This document shows positions 5,931-12,356 of a DNA stretch of 57,247 nucleotides, one piece after another. The DNA is from Cyclobacteriaceae bacterium (GTDB taxonomy: Bacteria; Bacteroidota; Bacteroidia; Cytophagales; Cyclobacteriaceae). The stretch lies in the NCBI GenBank assembly GCA_025455015.1, contig JALONI010000008.1, positions 1 through 57,247 of the forward strand, given 5' to 3'. How positions within the stretch are numbered: the stretch's first letter is position 1; every line of letters starts with the position of its first letter. Below the pieces are notes generated by a model that did not search any database, was not told the origin of the DNA, and saw nothing but the letters and a program-made list of their open reading frames with translations. A program made the position numbers and the translations under genes.

Positions 5931-7733
5931 TTAAAACGGATACTCGCCTTTTTCAATCACGTAGTTGGCTACCTTGCGTCTGGCTTCCTTGAGATTGTAG
6001 GGGTCAATCTTGGTAAATCGCTTCAACCCCATCAGCATCAGCCGCAGTTCATCCCCTTCGGCAAACGCGCTGATCGCTTCACGCCCGGCTTCGGCAGCGC
6101 GGTTTACTGCGTGGTGCAGATAAATCATCGCCATTGCTTTCTCTAATTCGCAGGCAGCTTCGCCTCGCTGGCCAATCATCTTTTCTACGCGCAGCAAGCA
6201 CGACTCCGCCACGTAGCCTTCTATCAGCATATCGGCCAGGTTCATGAGCACTTCCTGCTCATCGCTCAGCTTCATCATGTACTTCTGTACGGCAGCACCG
6301 GCTGCCATCAGTCCGGCTTTTTTCAGGTTAGCGATTACCTTCTTTTCTTTTGCGAATACTACGTCATCATCGCCACTGCCAAAGTCCGGCACGCTCATTA
6401 ATTCTTTTTGAACGGCCATCGCAGGCGTCATCAAGTCGAGGCCCCCCTTCATGGCGCGTTTCAGTAGCATGTCGATGGTGAGCATGCGGTTGATTTCATT
6501 GGTGCCTTCGAAAATGCGGTTGATACGTGCATCGCGGTAGGCGCGATCCATCGGGCCTTCGGCCGAGAAGCCCATGCCGCCATAAATCTGCACGCCCTCA
6601 TCCACCACAAAGTCGAGCACTTCGCTGCCGTGCACTTTCATGATGGCGCACTCGATCGCAAACTCTTCCAGTGATTTCAGGCGTGCCTGGCTGCTGTCCA
6701 TGCCACCGGCAATAAGGGCATGGTACGCATCTTCAATATTCTGGCTGGCACGGTAGTGCGCGGATTCTGAAGCAAAAATCTTAGTGACCATTTCGGCCAA
6801 CTTGTGTTTGATGGCGCCAAAGTTGGCGATGGATGTGCCAAACTGTTTGCGTTCTTTGGCATATCGCACGGCAATGCTTACCGTCATCTTGCAACCGCCC
6901 AGCGCAGCAACCCCCAATTTGATACGCCCGATGTTGAGGATGTTCACGGCAATTTTAAAGCCGTTCTCGCGCTCGCTCAGCATATTCTCAACGGGTACCT
7001 TGCAGTCGTTAAAGAAAATCTGACGGGTGGAAGAACCTTTGATGCCCATCTTCTTTTCCTCTTCGTTCATCGTAATCCCGCCAAATGACTTTTCTACGAT
7101 GAAGGCGGTCAGGTTTTTGTCGTTGTCGATTTTGGCGAACACCACAAAAACATCCGCAAAGCCCCCGTTGGTGATCCACATCTTCTGCCCGTTGAGCACG
7201 TAGTGCTTGCCATCGGGGGTGAGCGTAGCTTTGGTTTTGCCGGAGTTGGCATCCGAGCCGGAGTCGGGTTCAGTTAAACAGTAGGCCGCCTTCCATTTGC
7301 CGGACGCCAGGTTTGGGATGTACTTTTTCTTTTGTGCCTCGTTGCCGTAATACAAAATTGGCAGTGTGCCAATGCCCGTGTGCGCAGAGATGGCCACAGC
7401 AAACGAGTGCCCGGCACCCAACACTTCGGCCACCAGCATGGTGGTGTTGAAGTCCATGCCAAAGCCACCGAGCTCCTGCGGAACCGATGTGCCCAGCAAC
7501 CCCAGTTCGCCTGCCTTGTCGAGCAGAGAAGGCATGAGTTCGGGATGCTTCATGGAGTCGATTTCGTCAAGCCTTGTATAGATTTCCTGCTTGAGAAAAT
7601 CCTTGCACGTTTGTGCGATCATGCGTTGTTCTTCCGTGAACTCTTCGGGAATGAAGATGTCATGCGCGTGCGTCTCGCGGATCAGAAACTCTCCGCCTTT
7701 GATTGCTTGTTTGGTTTCTACTGCTGTTGCCAT
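5931..7733 (-). CDS. fadE: Acyl-CoA dehydrogenase, FadE-type
   Basis: 600 residues, longer than the usual 380-residue acyl-CoA dehydrogenases because of a C-terminal extension of about 170 residues, as in Bacillus FadE (about 594 residues). FAD- and substrate-binding regions include YCLTEPDSGSDA and KMWITNGGFADV. The catalytic Glu lies in RIFEGTNEINRM near residue 405. It makes the trans-2-enoyl-CoA, the first step of beta-oxidation. Last gene of the operon marR, antitoxin, toxin, fadN, four-helix gene, fadA, fadE. The spacer before it holds a 20-bp hairpin of repeat words (7776-7824), and a terminator follows at 5816-5846. Confidence 0.95.
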   Translation of the reverse strand: MATAVETKQAIKGGEFLIRETHAHDIFIPEEFTEEQRMIAQTCKDFLKQEIYTRLDEIDSMKHPELMPSLLDKAGELGLLGTSVPQELGGFGMDFNTTMLVAEVLGAGHSFAVAISAHTGIGTLPILYYGNEAQKKKYIPNLASGKWKAAYCLTEPDSGSDANSGKTKATLTPDGKHYVLNGQKMWITNGGFADVFVVFAKIDNDKNLTAFIVEKSFGGITMNEEEKKMGIKGSSTRQIFFNDCKVPVENMLSERENGFKIAVNILNIGRIKLGVAALGGCKMTVSIAVRYAKERKQFGTSIANFGAIKHKLAEMVTKIFASESAHYRASQNIEDAYHALIAGGMDSSQARLKSLEEFAIECAIMKVHGSEVLDFVVDEGVQIYGGMGFSAEGPMDRAYRDARINRIFEGTNEINRMLTIDMLLKRAMKGGLDLMTPAMAVQKELMSVPDFGSGDDDVVFAKEKKVIANLKKAGLMAAGAAVQKYMMKLSDEQEVLMNLADMLIEGYVAESCLLRVEKMIGQRGEAACELEKAMAMIYLHHAVNRAAEAGREAISAFAEGDELRLMLMGLKRFTKIDPYNLKEARRKVANYVIEKGEYPF

Positions 7734-7768
7734 GTTCGTTGTATTTTGCTTTTTTCTTTAGTTTTAAA

Positions 7769-7824
7769 TAGGCAGTAGGCAAAAGCAATCGGCAAGTTTG
7801 CGGTTTGCCTATTGCCTTTGCCTA
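7769..7824. repeat. Gene-less hairpin of TAGGCAA words in the fadA-fadE spacer
   Basis: Arm 7776-7795 (TAGGCAAAAGCAATCGGCAA) pairs with 7805-7824 at 18 of 20 positions around a 9-nt loop. An extra TAGGCAG unit precedes it at 7769. The same heptamer-like words flank the four-helix-bundle gene 1.2 kb away. It is not a terminator, because no T-run follows in the operon direction. Confidence 0.8.
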
Positions 7825-7829
7825 CGCGT

Positions 7830-9005
7830 TCAATTTAATAGTTCGTAAATGCCCGCTACCCCCTGTCCACCGCCAACACAGGCCGTTACCATGCCGTACT
7901 TCTTGTTTTGTCTGCGAAGTTCATTGAAAAGCTGGACAGATAAACGTGCACCCGATGAGCCGAGCGGATGGCCCACCGCGATAGCGCCCCCGTTTACGTT
8001 CAGTTTGCTGCGATCGATGCCTAGTTCTTTTACTACTGCGAGCGACTGTGCGGCAAACGCCTCGTTAAGCTCGATTAAATCAATGTCATCCAGCTTTTTA
8101 CCAGCGATCTTCAAGGCTTTCGGGATAGCCGCCACCGGCCCAATGCCCATGATGCGTGGATCAACGCCAGCGGTAGCGTAGCTCACCATGCGCGCGATCG
8201 GCTTTACGTTAAGCTGCTTCACCATGCGCTCGCTCATGACCATCACAAACGCAGCGCCATCCGATGTTTGCGAAGAGTTGCCAGCTGTAACTGTACCGCC
8301 CATGGCAAACACGGGCTTCAATTTGGAGAGACCTTCTACGGTGGTGTCCGCACGAATGCCCTCATCCGTGGCGACTACGAACTCGCGTGTCTTCTTTTTC
8401 ATGTTTTCGTCCACAAAAGTTTCTTGCACCGTGATTGGCACCACTTCGTCTTTGAACTTTCCGGCCTTCCACGCAGCGGCAGCCTTCATGTGCGATTCGT
8501 AACTGAACTGGTCTTGTTCTTCGCGTGAAATTTTATACTGCTTCGATACCTCCTCGGCCGTAAGGCCCATGCTGGTGTAGTAGGTGGGGTTGTCTTTCGC
8601 GATGGCGTAGTTCAAGGCCGTTTTGAAACCCATCACCGGCACCAATGACATTGACTCGGTGCCACCGGCAATAATGATATCTGCCTGCCCCGCCTGGATG
8701 CGTTGGCTGGCGATGGCAATGGTTTCCACGCCTGAGCCACAATAGCGGTTCACCACCATGCCCGGCACATCAAGTCCCAAGGCCAGCAGGGCAATCATGC
8801 GCCCCATCTGCATACCTTGGTCCGCCTCCGGCACGGCATTGCCCACGATCAGGTCGTCAATCATTTTGTTCTCGACTCCGGGCACCGACTTCACCAGATG
8901 TTTGATCACATCCGCGGCCAGATCGTCCGGTCTTGTAAATCGAAATCCACCTTTTTTGGCCTTTCCTACGCCTGTTCTGAATCCGGCTACGATGTATGCT
9001 TCCAT
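7830..9005 (-). CDS. fadA: Acetyl-CoA acyltransferase (3-ketoacyl-CoA thiolase)
   Basis: 391 residues, exactly thiolase size and equal to Bacillus FadA. It cleaves 3-ketoacyl-CoA to acetyl-CoA and a shortened acyl-CoA. The nucleophile Cys89 is in NRYCGSGVETIA, the NEAFAAQ motif is present, the catalytic His is in NGGAIAVGHPLGSSGAR, and the second Cys is in TACVGGGQG near the C-terminus. It lies between fadN (with the four-helix gene inserted) and fadE, completing the beta-oxidation cycle. Start ATG 9005. Confidence 0.95.
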   Translation of the reverse strand: MEAYIVAGFRTGVGKAKKGGFRFTRPDDLAADVIKHLVKSVPGVENKMIDDLIVGNAVPEADQGMQMGRMIALLALGLDVPGMVVNRYCGSGVETIAIASQRIQAGQADIIIAGGTESMSLVPVMGFKTALNYAIAKDNPTYYTSMGLTAEEVSKQYKISREEQDQFSYESHMKAAAAWKAGKFKDEVVPITVQETFVDENMKKKTREFVVATDEGIRADTTVEGLSKLKPVFAMGGTVTAGNSSQTSDGAAFVMVMSERMVKQLNVKPIARMVSYATAGVDPRIMGIGPVAAIPKALKIAGKKLDDIDLIELNEAFAAQSLAVVKELGIDRSKLNVNGGAIAVGHPLGSSGARLSVQLFNELRRQNKKYGMVTACVGGGQGVAGIYELLN

Positions 9006-9035
9006 ATTTTGTTAGTTTGATCTGCTTTAATGTCA

Positions 9036-9069
9036 AATAGGCAAAAGGCAGTTTGCAATTGGCAAAGCC
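9036..9069. repeat. Left word array (AGGCAAAAGGCA) beside the four-helix gene
   Basis: A short array of GGCAA/GGCAG words all in one orientation on the plus strand, abutting the stop of the four-helix-bundle gene. The array on the other side (9467-9570) carries the same words in inverse orientation, so the gene is bracketed by degenerate inverted repeats. Confidence 0.7.
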
Positions 9070-9483
9070 TTAGGCCAGACTTTTATCTTTTTTTCTAACG
9101 TACAATGCTGGGTTTTCGACCATGTGGTTCAATAACCTTCCTACTTCCTCCGATTGCTCCAATAATTTTTCTTGTTGTTCGTGGCTGATGTAGTGACAGG
9201 CTACGGCAAAGTCTAGCCACGTCTGCGTCTCGCTATTTTCCATATCTGCGTCAGAAGACTTGCTTACAAAGTAGGCTTGGTAGTCGCGCTTTCTGTAGGC
9301 CTCCGCGATACAACTGCAAACCGCGCGCGAAGATCTTCTGATTTGATCGATAAGAGAATATCGCTCTTCTTTTGGAAACGACTTCGAGACCTCAAAAATC
9401 TCCATGGCCAAGGCAAAAGCTTTTTTGTAGACCGTTAAGTCCCTAAAACTCTGATTCCCATTTTGTCTACTGCCTATTGCCAT
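9070..9483 (-). CDS. Four-helix bundle protein (23S rRNA IVS-encoded / S23 family)
   Basis: 137 residues. Family hallmarks are visible: FRDLTVYKKAFALAMEIFEV in helix 1, a SFPKEERYSLIDQIRRSSRA segment, CSCIAEAYRKRD, then a helix with DADMENSETQTWLDFA. This family (PF05635; relatives include the Avd accessory protein of diversity-generating retroelements) forms a pentameric helical bundle in Avd and may bind nucleic acid; its cellular role is unknown. The first seven codons (MAIGSRQ) are written in the flanking repeat word, so the true start is uncertain. It sits between fadN and fadA, where it has no obvious metabolic role and looks like an insertion. Confidence 0.88.
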   Translation of the reverse strand: MAIGSRQNGNQSFRDLTVYKKAFALAMEIFEVSKSFPKEERYSLIDQIRRSSRAVCSCIAEAYRKRDYQAYFVSKSSDADMENSETQTWLDFAVACHYISHEQQEKLLEQSEEVGRLLNHMVENPALYVRKKDKSLA

Positions 9484-9570
9484 CTGCTTACAGATTGACC
9501 ACTTTTTCCAACTTGTTATTTGCCTACTGCTATTGCCTACTTCTCCGTTGCTACTTGCCTACTGCCTACT
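9467..9570. repeat. Right word array (TTGCCTACTGCC) beside the four-helix gene
   Basis: About nine copies of TGCCTA/TTGCCTA/CTGCC-like words between fadN and the four-helix-bundle gene. They run from inside the first codons of the latter to the fadN stop codon (TAG, 9569-9571). Orientation is opposite to the array at 9036-9069. A non-repetitive stretch of about 30 bp (9493-9528) interrupts it. Confidence 0.8.
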
Positions 9571-11968
9571 AATTTCTCAAGGGTTTACCACCTGTCAAGA
9601 TCGACTGGATCCGCTCCAGCGTTTTCTTCTCGCCACACAGGCTCACGAATGCCTCGCGTTCCAAATCCAACAGGTATTGCTCGCTTACTTCTTGTGGGTA
9701 GCTTAGATCGCCACCGCACATTACGTTCGCAATCTTCATCGCAATCTTCATGTCGTGGTCGCTGATGTAACGCCCCATCTTCATTCCGTTTACGCCTGCG
9801 GCAAAAAGCGCCAAACCGGTGCGGCCCTGCACTCTAATGTTGGTCGCCTGCGGCTTCATGGTGTAGCCGGCATCGGCCAATTCAATCACCGCAGCCTTGG
9901 CGTCTAAAAGCTGGCGGTCTTTGTTTACGCTGATCCGATCAAAATCGCGCAGCACGCCCATCTCGCGGGCCTCCTCGGCACTCAGGGCTACTTTCGCGGT
10001 AGCGATATTCATAAACGCATTCTGTAAAGCGTTTAATTCTACATCGCCTTCTTGCAGCGCATCGCTTACGCGCTTGGTGAATTCTTTGGTGCCGCCACCG
10101 CCCGGGATCAACCCCACGCCAACTTCTACCAGGCCGATGTATGTTTCGGCAGCCGCTTGCACCAAGTCTGCGTGCATCGTCATCTCGCAACCCCCACCCA
10201 GCGTGCGACTCTGCGGACAGACCACTACGGGCACACCCGAATAGCGAATGCGCATCACGGAATTCTGAAACGCGCGCACCATAAAATCCAACTCATCGTA
10301 GTCCTGTTCAATGGCATACATAAACACCATGCCCAGGTTGGCACCCAGCGAGAAGTCCGCGCCTTGATGGCCAATCACCAGGCCGCGGTAATTCTTTTCG
10401 GCCAGGTCAATGGCCTTGTTCATGCCCTCCACCACGGCACTGCCCAGCGTGTAACTCTTGCTGTGCCACGAGAAGTTGATCACACCATCGCCCAAGTCAG
10501 TGACTTTAGAGTCAGCGTTCTTCCAAACCACGTTGTCGCTGAGGTTTTCGAGGATGATAAAGGCCTCTTTGCTGGTGATCGTTTTGTAGCTCTTGCTCGG
10601 AATGTCGTAGTACTTGCGCTGGCCCGCTTCTACTTTGTAGAACGATTTGTGGCCGGCCGCCAGCATGTCATGCACCCAGGCTGCCGGTTTGTATCCTGCG
10701 GCCTCCATGGCTTGCGCAGTTTTTTCTACGCCCAATGCGTCCCAGGTATCGAAGGGCCCAAGCTCCCAGCCAAAGCCGGCACAGACGGCATCATCAATCC
10801 GGTACAGTTCATCGCTGATTTCGGGAATACGATTCGAAGCATATTGAAAGAGACCATAGAAGCAATCGCGATAAAAATCACCTGCCTTGTCTTTGCCCGC
10901 CAGCAACACCTTGAAGCGATCTTTTAGGTTGTCGATCGTTTTCGTGGTTTCGAGCGTGGCAAATTTTGCTTTCGCCTTGGGCTTGTATTCTAACGTTTTG
11001 AGGTCAAGCGTATGGATTTCTGATTTGCCATCGGGCGTCTTCACTTTCTTGTAAAAGCCCTGACCGGTTTTATCGCCCAGCCAGTTGTTCTTCTCCATTT
11101 TCGTTACCACCTCGTTGAGCTTGAACATCTCGCGGCCTTCATCGTTGGGAAGACCAGCGTAAAGGTTGTTGGCTACTTTGATAAGAGTATCAAGGCCTAC
11201 CAGATCGGAAGTGCGGAAGGTAGCCGACTTGGGGCGACCGATAACCGGGCCGGTGAGCTTGTCGATCTCATCCACGTTCAGGTCAAACTTCTGCATGGAG
11301 TCGATCACTTTCAACAAGCCCCAAACGCCCACCCGGTTGCCGATGAAAGCCGGAGTGTCTTTACAGAGCACAGCCGTTTTGCCGAGGTACAAATCGCCAT
11401 AATGCAACAGGAACCTGGTGATTTCCGGGTCGGTGTGCGGGGTGGGAATTACCTCAAACAGTTTCAGATAGCGAGGCGGGTTAAAGAAATGCGTGCCCGC
11501 GAAATGCTTTTTGAAATCCTCGCTCCGGCCTTCCGCCATCAGGTGAATAGGAATGCCCGAAGTATTGGATGTGACCAGCGTTCCGGGCTTGCGGAATTTC
11601 TCCACCTGCTCGTACACCTTCTTTTTGATGTCGAGGTTTTCCGTTACCACCTCAATGATCCAGTCGAAGTCTTTGATTTTGGAGAAGTCATCGGTGAAGT
11701 TGCCCAGCGCAATACGGGGGATGAATTTTTTGCTATAAATCGGGCCGGGGCTGGACTTGATGCAGCGGTCGAAAGATGTCTGCACAATGCGGTTTTTCAC
11801 CCCTTTGCTTTCCAGCGTAAGCCCTTTGGCCTTTTCTTCCTCGGTAAGCGCATGGGGGGCAATGTCGAGCAAGAGTACCTGGCAGCCGATGTTAGCAAAG
11901 TGACAGGCGATGGCGGAGCCCATCACACCTGAGCCGAGCACGGCTACTTTTTTGATAGAACGGTTCAT
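9569..11968 (-). CDS. fadN: 3-hydroxyacyl-CoA dehydrogenase / enoyl-CoA hydratase, FadN-type
   Basis: 799 residues with the dehydrogenase first and the hydratase second, the order of Bacillus FadN (789 residues) and the reverse of E. coli FadB. The NAD-binding Rossmann motif is VAVLGSGVMGSAIACHFA near residues 8-25; the hydroxyacyl-CoA dehydrogenase core follows, with HFFNPPRYLKLFEVIP. The crotonase domain is at about 510-720, with the oxyanion region around GADFSLGANLG and the GLVEVGVGLIPGGGG stretch. It carries out the two middle steps of beta-oxidation. ATG 11968 is chosen because the Rossmann strand starts right after it; an upstream in-frame ATG (12040) would overlap the PIN gene. Followed by the repeat array and the four-helix gene. 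Confidence 0.93.
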   Translation of the reverse strand: MNRSIKKVAVLGSGVMGSAIACHFANIGCQVLLLDIAPHALTEEEKAKGLTLESKGVKNRIVQTSFDRCIKSSPGPIYSKKFIPRIALGNFTDDFSKIKDFDWIIEVVTENLDIKKKVYEQVEKFRKPGTLVTSNTSGIPIHLMAEGRSEDFKKHFAGTHFFNPPRYLKLFEVIPTPHTDPEITRFLLHYGDLYLGKTAVLCKDTPAFIGNRVGVWGLLKVIDSMQKFDLNVDEIDKLTGPVIGRPKSATFRTSDLVGLDTLIKVANNLYAGLPNDEGREMFKLNEVVTKMEKNNWLGDKTGQGFYKKVKTPDGKSEIHTLDLKTLEYKPKAKAKFATLETTKTIDNLKDRFKVLLAGKDKAGDFYRDCFYGLFQYASNRIPEISDELYRIDDAVCAGFGWELGPFDTWDALGVEKTAQAMEAAGYKPAAWVHDMLAAGHKSFYKVEAGQRKYYDIPSKSYKTITSKEAFIILENLSDNVVWKNADSKVTDLGDGVINFSWHSKSYTLGSAVVEGMNKAIDLAEKNYRGLVIGHQGADFSLGANLGMVFMYAIEQDYDELDFMVRAFQNSVMRIRYSGVPVVVCPQSRTLGGGCEMTMHADLVQAAAETYIGLVEVGVGLIPGGGGTKEFTKRVSDALQEGDVELNALQNAFMNIATAKVALSAEEAREMGVLRDFDRISVNKDRQLLDAKAAVIELADAGYTMKPQATNIRVQGRTGLALFAAGVNGMKMGRYISDHDMKIAMKIANVMCGGDLSYPQEVSEQYLLDLEREAFVSLCGEKKTLERIQSILTGGKPLRN

Positions 11969-11972
11969 GTTT

Positions 11973-12356
11973 TTACCAGATGGTTTTGATTGGGTATTGT
12001 TTGATGTTTTTGTCGATTGTGATAATGACCAGGTCTTCATGTGTAGCCTGCGCCACCAGCATACGATCGAAGGGATCTCGATGAATGGACTTGAGCTCCT
12101 TCAATAATTCAATATGCTGAATATCAATAGTCAAGGTTTTTACGCCCAGTTGGGTTGCAAAGTCGATTACGGACTGTAACCCCTTCTTCAATTGAAGTTT
12201 ACCAAGCTGAAGTTTTATTGCCATTTCCCAATAGGATGCGACACTTACAAATCTTAGGTTGTTTCTGTTTTCTATTTCTGCTCTGGCTGTTACGGACAGT
12301 CGATTGTCACCTTCCGCCATCCAAAGCAGTGAATGAGTATCCAACAGCACGTTCAT
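11973..12356 (-). CDS. PIN-domain toxin, VapC-like
   Basis: 127 residues of PIN fold. The N-terminus MNVLLDTHSLLWM carries the first catalytic Asp, a middle VASYWEMAIK segment supplies the conserved Glu, and HRDPFDRMLVAQA plus LVIITIDKNI complete the acidic Mg-binding site. Such proteins are ribonucleases of type II toxin-antitoxin pairs. Its ATG overlaps the antitoxin stop by one base (TAATG), the usual coupling. It is embedded between marR and fadN in the fad operon, so it should be transcribed with lipid catabolism genes. Confidence 0.88.
   Translation of the reverse strand: MNVLLDTHSLLWMAEGDNRLSVTARAEIENRNNLRFVSVASYWEMAIKLQLGKLQLKKGLQSVIDFATQLGVKTLTIDIQHIELLKELKSIHRDPFDRMLVAQATHEDLVIITIDKNIKQYPIKTIW

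Follow-up and report, generated by a model that had tools for sequence, protein, structure and literature searches.

S23 genes between inverted heptamer arrays in operon spacers of Bacteroidota: a probable family of very small mobile elements

The S23 unit between fadN and fadA

The window, that is, the whole stretch of 57,247 nucleotides analysed here from a Cyclobacteriaceae genome (contig JALONI010000008.1), contains fad operon genes on the minus strand that enclose an S23 gene, word arrays on both of its sides and a separate small hairpin:

5931–7733, minus strand: acyl-CoA dehydrogenase (FadE-type), the next operon gene (NCBIfam)
7769–7824, no strand assigned: S23-less mini-hairpin with the same word as the window arrays, in the spacer between fadA and the acyl-CoA dehydrogenase gene
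7830–9005, minus strand: fadA-like thiolase (acetyl-CoA C-acyltransferase), 391 aa (NCBIfam)
9038–9066, minus strand: 3′ word array, reverse complement of the 5′ words, TTTGCCAATTGCAAACTGCCTTTTGCCTA (sequence words)
9070–9483, minus strand: S23/IVP four-helix-bundle protein, 137 aa (PF05635; AlphaFold; Foldseek)
9464–9483, minus strand: second word block, which also forms the first S23 codons, ATGGCAATAGGCAGTAGACA (sequence words)
9518–9571, minus strand: 5′ word array of the S23 unit, TAGGCAGTAGGCAAGTAGCAA...GTAGGCAATAGCAGTAGGCAAA in minus-strand reading (sequence words)
9569–12040, minus strand: fadN-like 3-hydroxyacyl-CoA dehydrogenase/enoyl-CoA hydratase, 823 aa (NCBIfam FadB-type match under the curated cut-off)

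The fadN-like, S23 and thiolase genes all run in the same direction, and the fadN stop codon TAG (9571–9569, minus strand) touches the 5′ array. TAGGCAGTAGGCA follows directly at 9568–9556 and, in the S23 sense, further TAGGCA and TAGCAA words continue to about 9518, the 5′ flank as a whole being a chain of TAGGCAG, TAGGCAA and TAGCAA. The 3′ array TTTGCCAATTGCAAACTGCCTTTTGCCTA (9066–9038, S23 sense) comes after the S23 stop codon. The unit therefore comprises a single Avd-fold S23 gene and two inverted arrays of degenerate heptamers, placed directly after a stop codon, between co-directional genes and in operon sense. Both the coordinates and a 109.5-bit match to PF05635 (23S rRNA intervening-sequence protein; cut-off 33.8) bear out the original prediction of an S23/IVS-type gene between fadN and fadA with words in inverse orientation on its two sides, and the start codons of the gene are indeed made of array words, as had been proposed (ATGGCAATAGGCAGTAGACA, 9483–9464). 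The array that had been placed at 9467–9570 stands in part: words occupy 9518–9571 and 9464–9483, but the stretch from 9484 to 9517 does not consist of words. The hairpin at 7769–7824, built from the same word, is an addition to that earlier description.

S23/IVP proteins are widespread, their structures have been solved and they have no known function. At E 0.001 the only Pfam matches of the window S23 are PF05635 and PF22296 (bAvd, 45.5 bits). Its AlphaFold model has four helices (pLDDT 94), and Foldseek aligns this model with 2gsc and 2rld (TM 0.93 and 0.88 over the target) as well as with Avd, 4dwl (TM 0.90 over the target, E 0.002), so that the suggested resemblance to Avd is found in both fold and profile. 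The median dN/dS of S23 is 0.049 (12 computable of the 32 closest pairs, several with dS > 1), and the protein appears to be kept by purifying selection. The reverse transcriptase family RVT_1 has no match in the window's genome, which is 96% complete; a diversity-generating retroelement was rejected for the window unit on this ground.

Taken by itself, the window locus is modestly unusual. The word TAGGCARTAGGCA, with up to two mismatches, has nine copies in the whole window, compared with a mean of 1.51 and a maximum of 4 in 100 dinucleotide shuffles, and six of the nine fall in the two fad spacers, the 7769–7824 hairpin included. The heptad repeats in the 88-nt 5′ flank of S23 are matched in 14 of 2000 shuffles, the inverted sharing of 6-mers between the flanks in 84 and the flank duplex energy in 295. 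The minimum-energy RNA fold of the whole unit pairs both arrays around the gene, with a z of only −1.7, and the inverted 8-mer score of the locus is 26, under the S23 mean of 49.8. The weight of the observation lies at the level of the family.

Word arrays in the S23 family

Each of the six PF05635 genes of the window's genome lies, by eye, beside arrays of short words, and the word differs among the six save for the sister copies L004 and L005. A PF05635 search of 58 genomes, the window's own included, was positive in 49 and gave at least about 233 matches (summed from the table). The better-scoring matches and the FadN loci yielded a relatives' set of 121 distinct S23 domains, 106 of them with both 200-bp flanks, which were scored by the number of bases covered by 8-mers that one flank has in common with its partner flank when the latter is read as reverse complement. 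The mean inverted score of these 106 loci is 49.8, with 57% at 40 or above, compared with 11.7 (6%) when flanks of different loci are paired (2096 pairs), 11.5 (4%) for 50 other window genes, among whose high scorers is fadA, flanked by two arrays, and 13.6 (7%) for Markov shuffles; sharing on the same strand reaches 22.2 (21%). From these comparisons it follows that the sharing is mostly inverted and specific to the locus, and the enrichment of inverted arrays beside PF05635 genes that had been anticipated is present here and in the named-genome set described below. Among the weak scorers, 20 of the 106 loci fall under 20, of which 12 score 0; L229 carries direct instead of inverted arrays. 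The flank duplex energy is −44.6 kcal/mol for the flanks of S23 loci paired with their own partners and −31.7 kcal/mol for mispaired ones.

The arrays have a period of seven, as identical 5-mers recur at lags 7, 14 and 21 with 9.8, 9.7 and 6.4 times the expected frequency, more weakly at lags 8, 16 and 24 (4.5, 3.1 and 2.7 times), and below expectation at the other lags between 3 and 13. In a named-genome set consisting of the best 80 of at least 583 confirmed S23 loci, 73 with both flanks, the 58 Bacteroidota loci have an inverted mean of 49.1 against 13.4 for mispaired flanks and the 15 differently labelled loci (Ignavibacteria counted here) 61.3 against 9.5, the lag-7 signal being present in both groups. 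Arrayed S23 loci include ones labelled Elusimicrobia, Nitrospirae, Ignavibacteria and Thiodictyon, although such labels of metagenome bins are possibly wrong: L178, labelled "Limnohabitans", sits between fadN and fadA and has an S23 that is 82–88% identical to those of the Flavobacteriales loci L176 and L179.

Heptamer arrays in intergenic DNA number five in 276 kb sampled from the window's genome, where at least 11 kb reads as N (contigs C10, C13, C16 and C19, for L144, L147, L150 and L153, come out as runs of N and could not be used), and four in a 400-kb sample of the relative G007, three of them S23-less, where six other periods gave 0–2; five and four arrays are too few for a precise ratio of solo to S23-bearing ones. 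We also note solo direct intergenic arrays at L007, L008 and L012 in the window's genome, some of which chain different words (TAGGCAG beside ACTTTCAGACTTC).

Array words were compared across 182 loci (107 from relatives and 75 named). The number of words common to pairs of loci at different sites climbs with S23 identity, from 0.12 at 35–45% and 0.19 at 45–55% to 0.62 at 55–65% and 2.37 at 65–75%; different S23 genes within one genome have 0.375 words in common, and same-site pairs with S23 35–55% identical have 0.47–0.51. Different-site pairs that are at least 50% identical share 0.440 words, compared with a mean of 0.263 and a largest value of 0.369 in 500 permutations of the word sets. The words go with the S23 protein, not with the site or the genome; an exception is L225, with no words in common with S23 relatives at 70–75% identity.

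The association extends beyond the flanks. Class-A S23 proteins are defined as those at least 57% identical to the window's, a limit put at a gap in the list (the next value is 49%), and TAGGCARTAGGCA occurs genome-wide in 12 of 13 genomes that have one, the window's included, versus 6 of 43 that do not (Fisher p = 3.8e-7). Within the genus the figures are 10 of 11 and 3 of 24 (p = 1.5e-5), and all 12 class-A genomes with the word have some sites away from the class-A gene. As exceptions, G005 has a class-A S23 without TAGGCARTAGGCA, while G018 and G052, without class A, have 9 and 12 word sites. Counted by independent branches, 3.6 of 5 pairs follow the association and none opposes it, too few pairs for more than p = 0.125. 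A second word, GTTGTTAGTTGTT, is within the genus commonest in G007 (10 hits), whose S23 at L042 has such words, and is scattered elsewhere (24 of 56 genomes).

GxxExxY genes (PF13366, PDDEXK_3; L236–L263, for example L236, L247, L255 and L257) are also bracketed by common word arrays. The 27 usable of 30 such loci have an inverted mean of 49.4 with 63% at 40 or above, compared with 17.7 and 12.5% for mispaired flanks, and their same-strand sharing, with a mean of 59.4 and 44% at 40 or above, has a higher mean than the inverted. Their words have a period of 8–10 bases, as in ACCGCAGAG/GCGCAAAGG, and several copies are fragments.

Sites, turnover and defective copies

S23 and both of its neighbours are co-directional at 150 of 167 loci (90%), compared with 194 of 331 genes (59%) in the 400-kb G007 background, and the median distances from the S23 domain to its neighbours are about 74 and 83 bases. 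A gene for FadN, FadA or acyl-CoA dehydrogenase adjoins 57 of the 182 S23 loci (27 between fadN and fadA, 24 between fadA and the acyl-CoA dehydrogenase gene, six with one of these genes found), a share that may be inflated because similarity to S23 proteins from this order was the criterion for choosing the named set; the other 125 lie elsewhere. The fadN–fadA–acyl-CoA dehydrogenase spacers (window 5931–12040 and relatives) are, we note, a favoured home of S23 across Bacteroidota. Other sites recur in argD, sufC, sdhB, murD, dnaJ, rsmH and aguA operons (NCBIfam names), with partner genes named by eye as argC, sufB, sdhA, ftsW, grpE, mraZ and two metH halves.

Comparison with relatives at the fadN site, as the original prediction had called for, shows that S23 is not conserved in all of them: it follows fadN in 17 of 30 fadN loci, the window's included, and is absent there from the other 13. 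At this site S23 is either of class A (about 60–93% identical to the window's), with TAGGCAG or TGACAAT words, or of class B (27–47% identical), with TAGTATTTAGTC-type words, and 7 of the 13 spacers without S23 contain, by eye, a short inverted array. Mapped onto a tree built from FadN and FadA of 32 genomes, the three spacer states need 13 changes, compared with a mean of 15.2 after shuffling and a value as low in 26 of 200 shuffles, so that spacer content is hardly clustered on the tree. G007, which is without S23 at the fadN site, is the sister of the window's genome (support 88). Both neighbours of the L004 site are matched in three genomes, where the spacer contains a solo array (G015), a hairpin (G028) or neither of these (G017). 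A proposed empty site at L005 was rejected: G017, G028 and G029 lack a unit after the upstream gene, but the gene downstream differs from that of L005, and G015, which alone keeps both neighbours, has the unit too. L004, the fad spacers and the rplO-secY spacer considered next compensate for the loss of this case.

The strongest evidence for mobility, including that of copies unable to make the whole protein, comes from internally deleted copies in the genome G037. Besides an intact S23 unit (L316; PF05635, 103 bits), this genome carries five copies, L307, L308, L309, L310 and L312, that have lost the middle of S23 and retained the ends and arrays. Four of them are 96–98% identical to one another and L312, with a larger deletion, is 89–90% identical. 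The five sites are unrelated, with L312 between rplO and secY, L308 behind rbfA and L310 between genes for a UDP-sugar dehydrogenase and an epimerase, and the rplO-secY spacers of 22 other genomes of the order, 2–162 bases long, contain no such unit by eye. No target-site duplication was seen by eye at the five copies, whose variable array ends hide the junctions. Two of the five, L309 and L310, have by eye inverted host sequence outside the arrays (AGCGCATGGCA/TGCCATGCGCT and GTAATTCAATGG/CCATTGAATTAC), on which we base no claim that units insert into palindromes already present in the host; a symporter-like reading frame has the L309 unit at its 3′ end.

Protein-free copies of the repeat are found as well. 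The genome G000 has 8 word sites, 7 of them away from S23, and G037 has 24; such copies occur as inverted pairs (window 7769–7824, L009, L317–L319) and as direct arrays (L007, L012). At other sites in some genomes, then, there are derivatives without a whole S23, either deleted inside or reduced to the hairpin. Words are also common to neighbouring spacers: in 14 genomes with one S23 across the two fad spacers, on average 12.9 7-mers are common to both spacers versus 3.8 across genomes, a value reached in 0 of 10,000 permutations, and in 4 of these 14 operons the other spacer has at most two words in common. We note in addition that the TAGGCA hairpins at L317, L319 and L320 in G037 lie inside another inverted sequence (AAATCCCACGAAAG ... 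CTTTAGTGGGATTT), forming nested hairpins of two types.

Origin of the units and comparison with known systems

We consider it likely, with a probability of about 0.7, that window 9038–9571 represents one member of a family of very small, IVS-like mobile elements that reside in operon spacers and have REPIN-like satellites. The deleted copies at five sites in G037 and the sites without a unit support the original suggestion of an insertion-prone, perhaps mobile unit. Against it stands that no target-site duplication, catalytic residue or transposition event has been identified. S23, presumably a pentamer like its solved relatives, would recognise folded nucleic acid that contains the array of its own words, a role for which the evidence is correlative, namely the word type of each lineage, the words of the hairpins and the association of one word with one class. 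Recognition would cause both array-bounded units and S23-less hairpins of the same word to be copied, in the manner proposed for RAYT transposases and REPINs, and the arrays would change length by gain or loss of heptamers. Base pairing between the arrays in the mRNA may create a stem that has the S23 gene in its loop, as in the 23S rRNA IVS, and by analogy RNase III may cut this stem, which would soften the insertion and allow it to be tolerated; we propose this step because of the IVS work and the flank duplex energies reported above.

The arrays could instead be passive simple-sequence hot spots, in which slippage and fold-back copying expand heptamers, recombination homogenises adjacent spacers and S23 is merely retained. 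This account fits the degenerate heptamers and their varying number, as well as the frequency of S23-less arrays (three of four in the G007 sample), but we judge it improbable, since the words track the S23 protein between unrelated sites and slippage does not produce internally deleted S23 copies at five sites. Moreover, where S23 is present in both fad spacers (five genomes), the two do not match in words, with 2.4 in common versus 3.75 across genomes.

Equally improbable is a domesticated regulator, by which S23 would be an RNA-binding protein and the arrays operators, or hairpins that process or stabilise mRNA, tuning the neighbouring genes, with ordinary gene transfer accounting for the spread. 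The apparent purifying selection on S23 and its sense location in housekeeping operons (fad and the seven named above) speak for such a regulator, which is also compatible with the mobile-element explanation; however, one site swaps two S23 classes, a hairpin or nothing among relatives, the contexts are functionally unrelated, and defective copies have multiplied.

A retro-mobile element, whose S23-array RNA would be copied by a reverse transcriptase acting in trans with S23 in the manner of Avd, is suggested by the Avd fold, by the sense orientation between co-directional genes, by the four RVT_1 matches in G037, the genome with the deleted copies, and by the residence of IVS units inside rRNA (PMC4990558). 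We nevertheless regard it as very unlikely, because RVT_1 has no match in 17 genomes with at least four S23 genes, the window's own included and some of them incomplete drafts; it seems that a genome can carry S23 units without having a reverse transcriptase. Finally, an ordinary, vertically inherited fad-operon gene beside chance short repeats, for which the 57 fad-adjacent loci across Bacteroidota might speak, can be dismissed: a single site has S23 of two divergent classes or no S23 at all (13 changes in 32 genomes), 125 of 182 loci lie elsewhere, and the flank controls reject chance repeats.

Returning to the mobile-element reading, a broader form of it, to which we give slightly less than even odds, is that these units represent phylum-spanning mobile DNA that encodes no recognisable transposase, recombinase or reverse transcriptase, in which an Avd-fold S23 recognises a private heptamer code in the inverted arrays and spreads both the unit and protein-free hairpins through operon spacers, the rRNA IVS is a special case that landed in rRNA and the GxxExxY (PF13366) genes follow the same logic. 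If the mobile-element reading is right, S23 is the only protein of one of the smallest families of mobile elements, and its units would have supplied short repeats to the intergenic DNA of Bacteroidota and given rise to the rRNA intervening sequences that carry S23. The function of S23 would also become directly testable, because each protein comes with a predicted target word, and the units would offer a simpler relative for the study of Avd action.

The literature comparisons below draw on passages of the cited papers. The 23S rRNA IVS with an S23p ORF is known from Coxiella, Leptospira and others, where RNase III excises the unit, with its site at the first heptamer, and the Coxiella S23p is judged not to be expressed and to be in reductive evolution (PMC4990558). 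The units described here resemble it in that complementary ends can form a stem whose loop holds the S23 ORF in sense orientation, and in their sporadic distribution (PMC4990558); the sense orientation is seen here in the co-directional 150 of 167 loci, and the complementary ends in the flank duplex energies and in the window fold that pairs the arrays (z −1.7). They differ in that the window unit lies between fadN and fadA rather than in 23S rRNA, with other loci in protein operons, in that both ends of operon-spacer units are heptamer arrays whose word follows the S23 lineage, and in that dispersed S23-less and internally deleted derivatives exist. Operon-spacer S23 is, moreover, apparently under purifying selection, in contrast to the reductive evolution of the Coxiella S23p (PMC4990558).

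With the REPIN/RAYT system, the units share a gene flanked by its own repeat word, gene-free inverted word pairs dispersed as small hairpins, and word groups that adjoin particular protein copies (PMC3116915). However, S23 has no transposase match (at E 0.001 its Pfam matches are limited to PF05635 and PF22296), and its words form heptamer arrays whereas a REPIN word is one 16-mer (PMC3116915). Avd (4dwl; PMC10053308) has the same fold, and PF22296 (bAvd) matches the window S23, but in contrast to diversity-generating retroelements the window's genome is without a reverse transcriptase match. As in MITEs, internally deleted, terminally inverted copies stand beside a full copy, a likeness that holds for the family through G037 (five copies and one intact) and not for the window copy; in contrast to MITEs, the ends of S23 units are variable word arrays, no target-site duplication was seen and there is no transposase. 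Cyanobacterial repeats include small dispersed repeats and STRR. In addition, TAACTGA heptamer repeats occur in Beggiatoaceae, Cyanobacteria and five Bacteroidetes (PMC4679880), in a paper whose main text does not contain the term S23, and two alternative classes of heptamer repeat build the same stem, P6b, in the Nostoc tRNA-Leu intron (PMC4476775); the likeness to the S23 arrays lies in seven-base repeats in intergenic DNA or structured RNA (PMC4679880, PMC4476775). A further paper names the S23 family in a figure legend only (PMC10910872). The IVS with an S23 ORF, heptamer repeats, REPIN/RAYT pairs and Avd are thus already known separately, and no paper linking S23 genes outside rRNA with heptamer arrays was found in a search of open-access papers. 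Since the parts are known apart and no joining paper was found there, we class the S23 unit as a kind of IVS with REPIN-like satellites.
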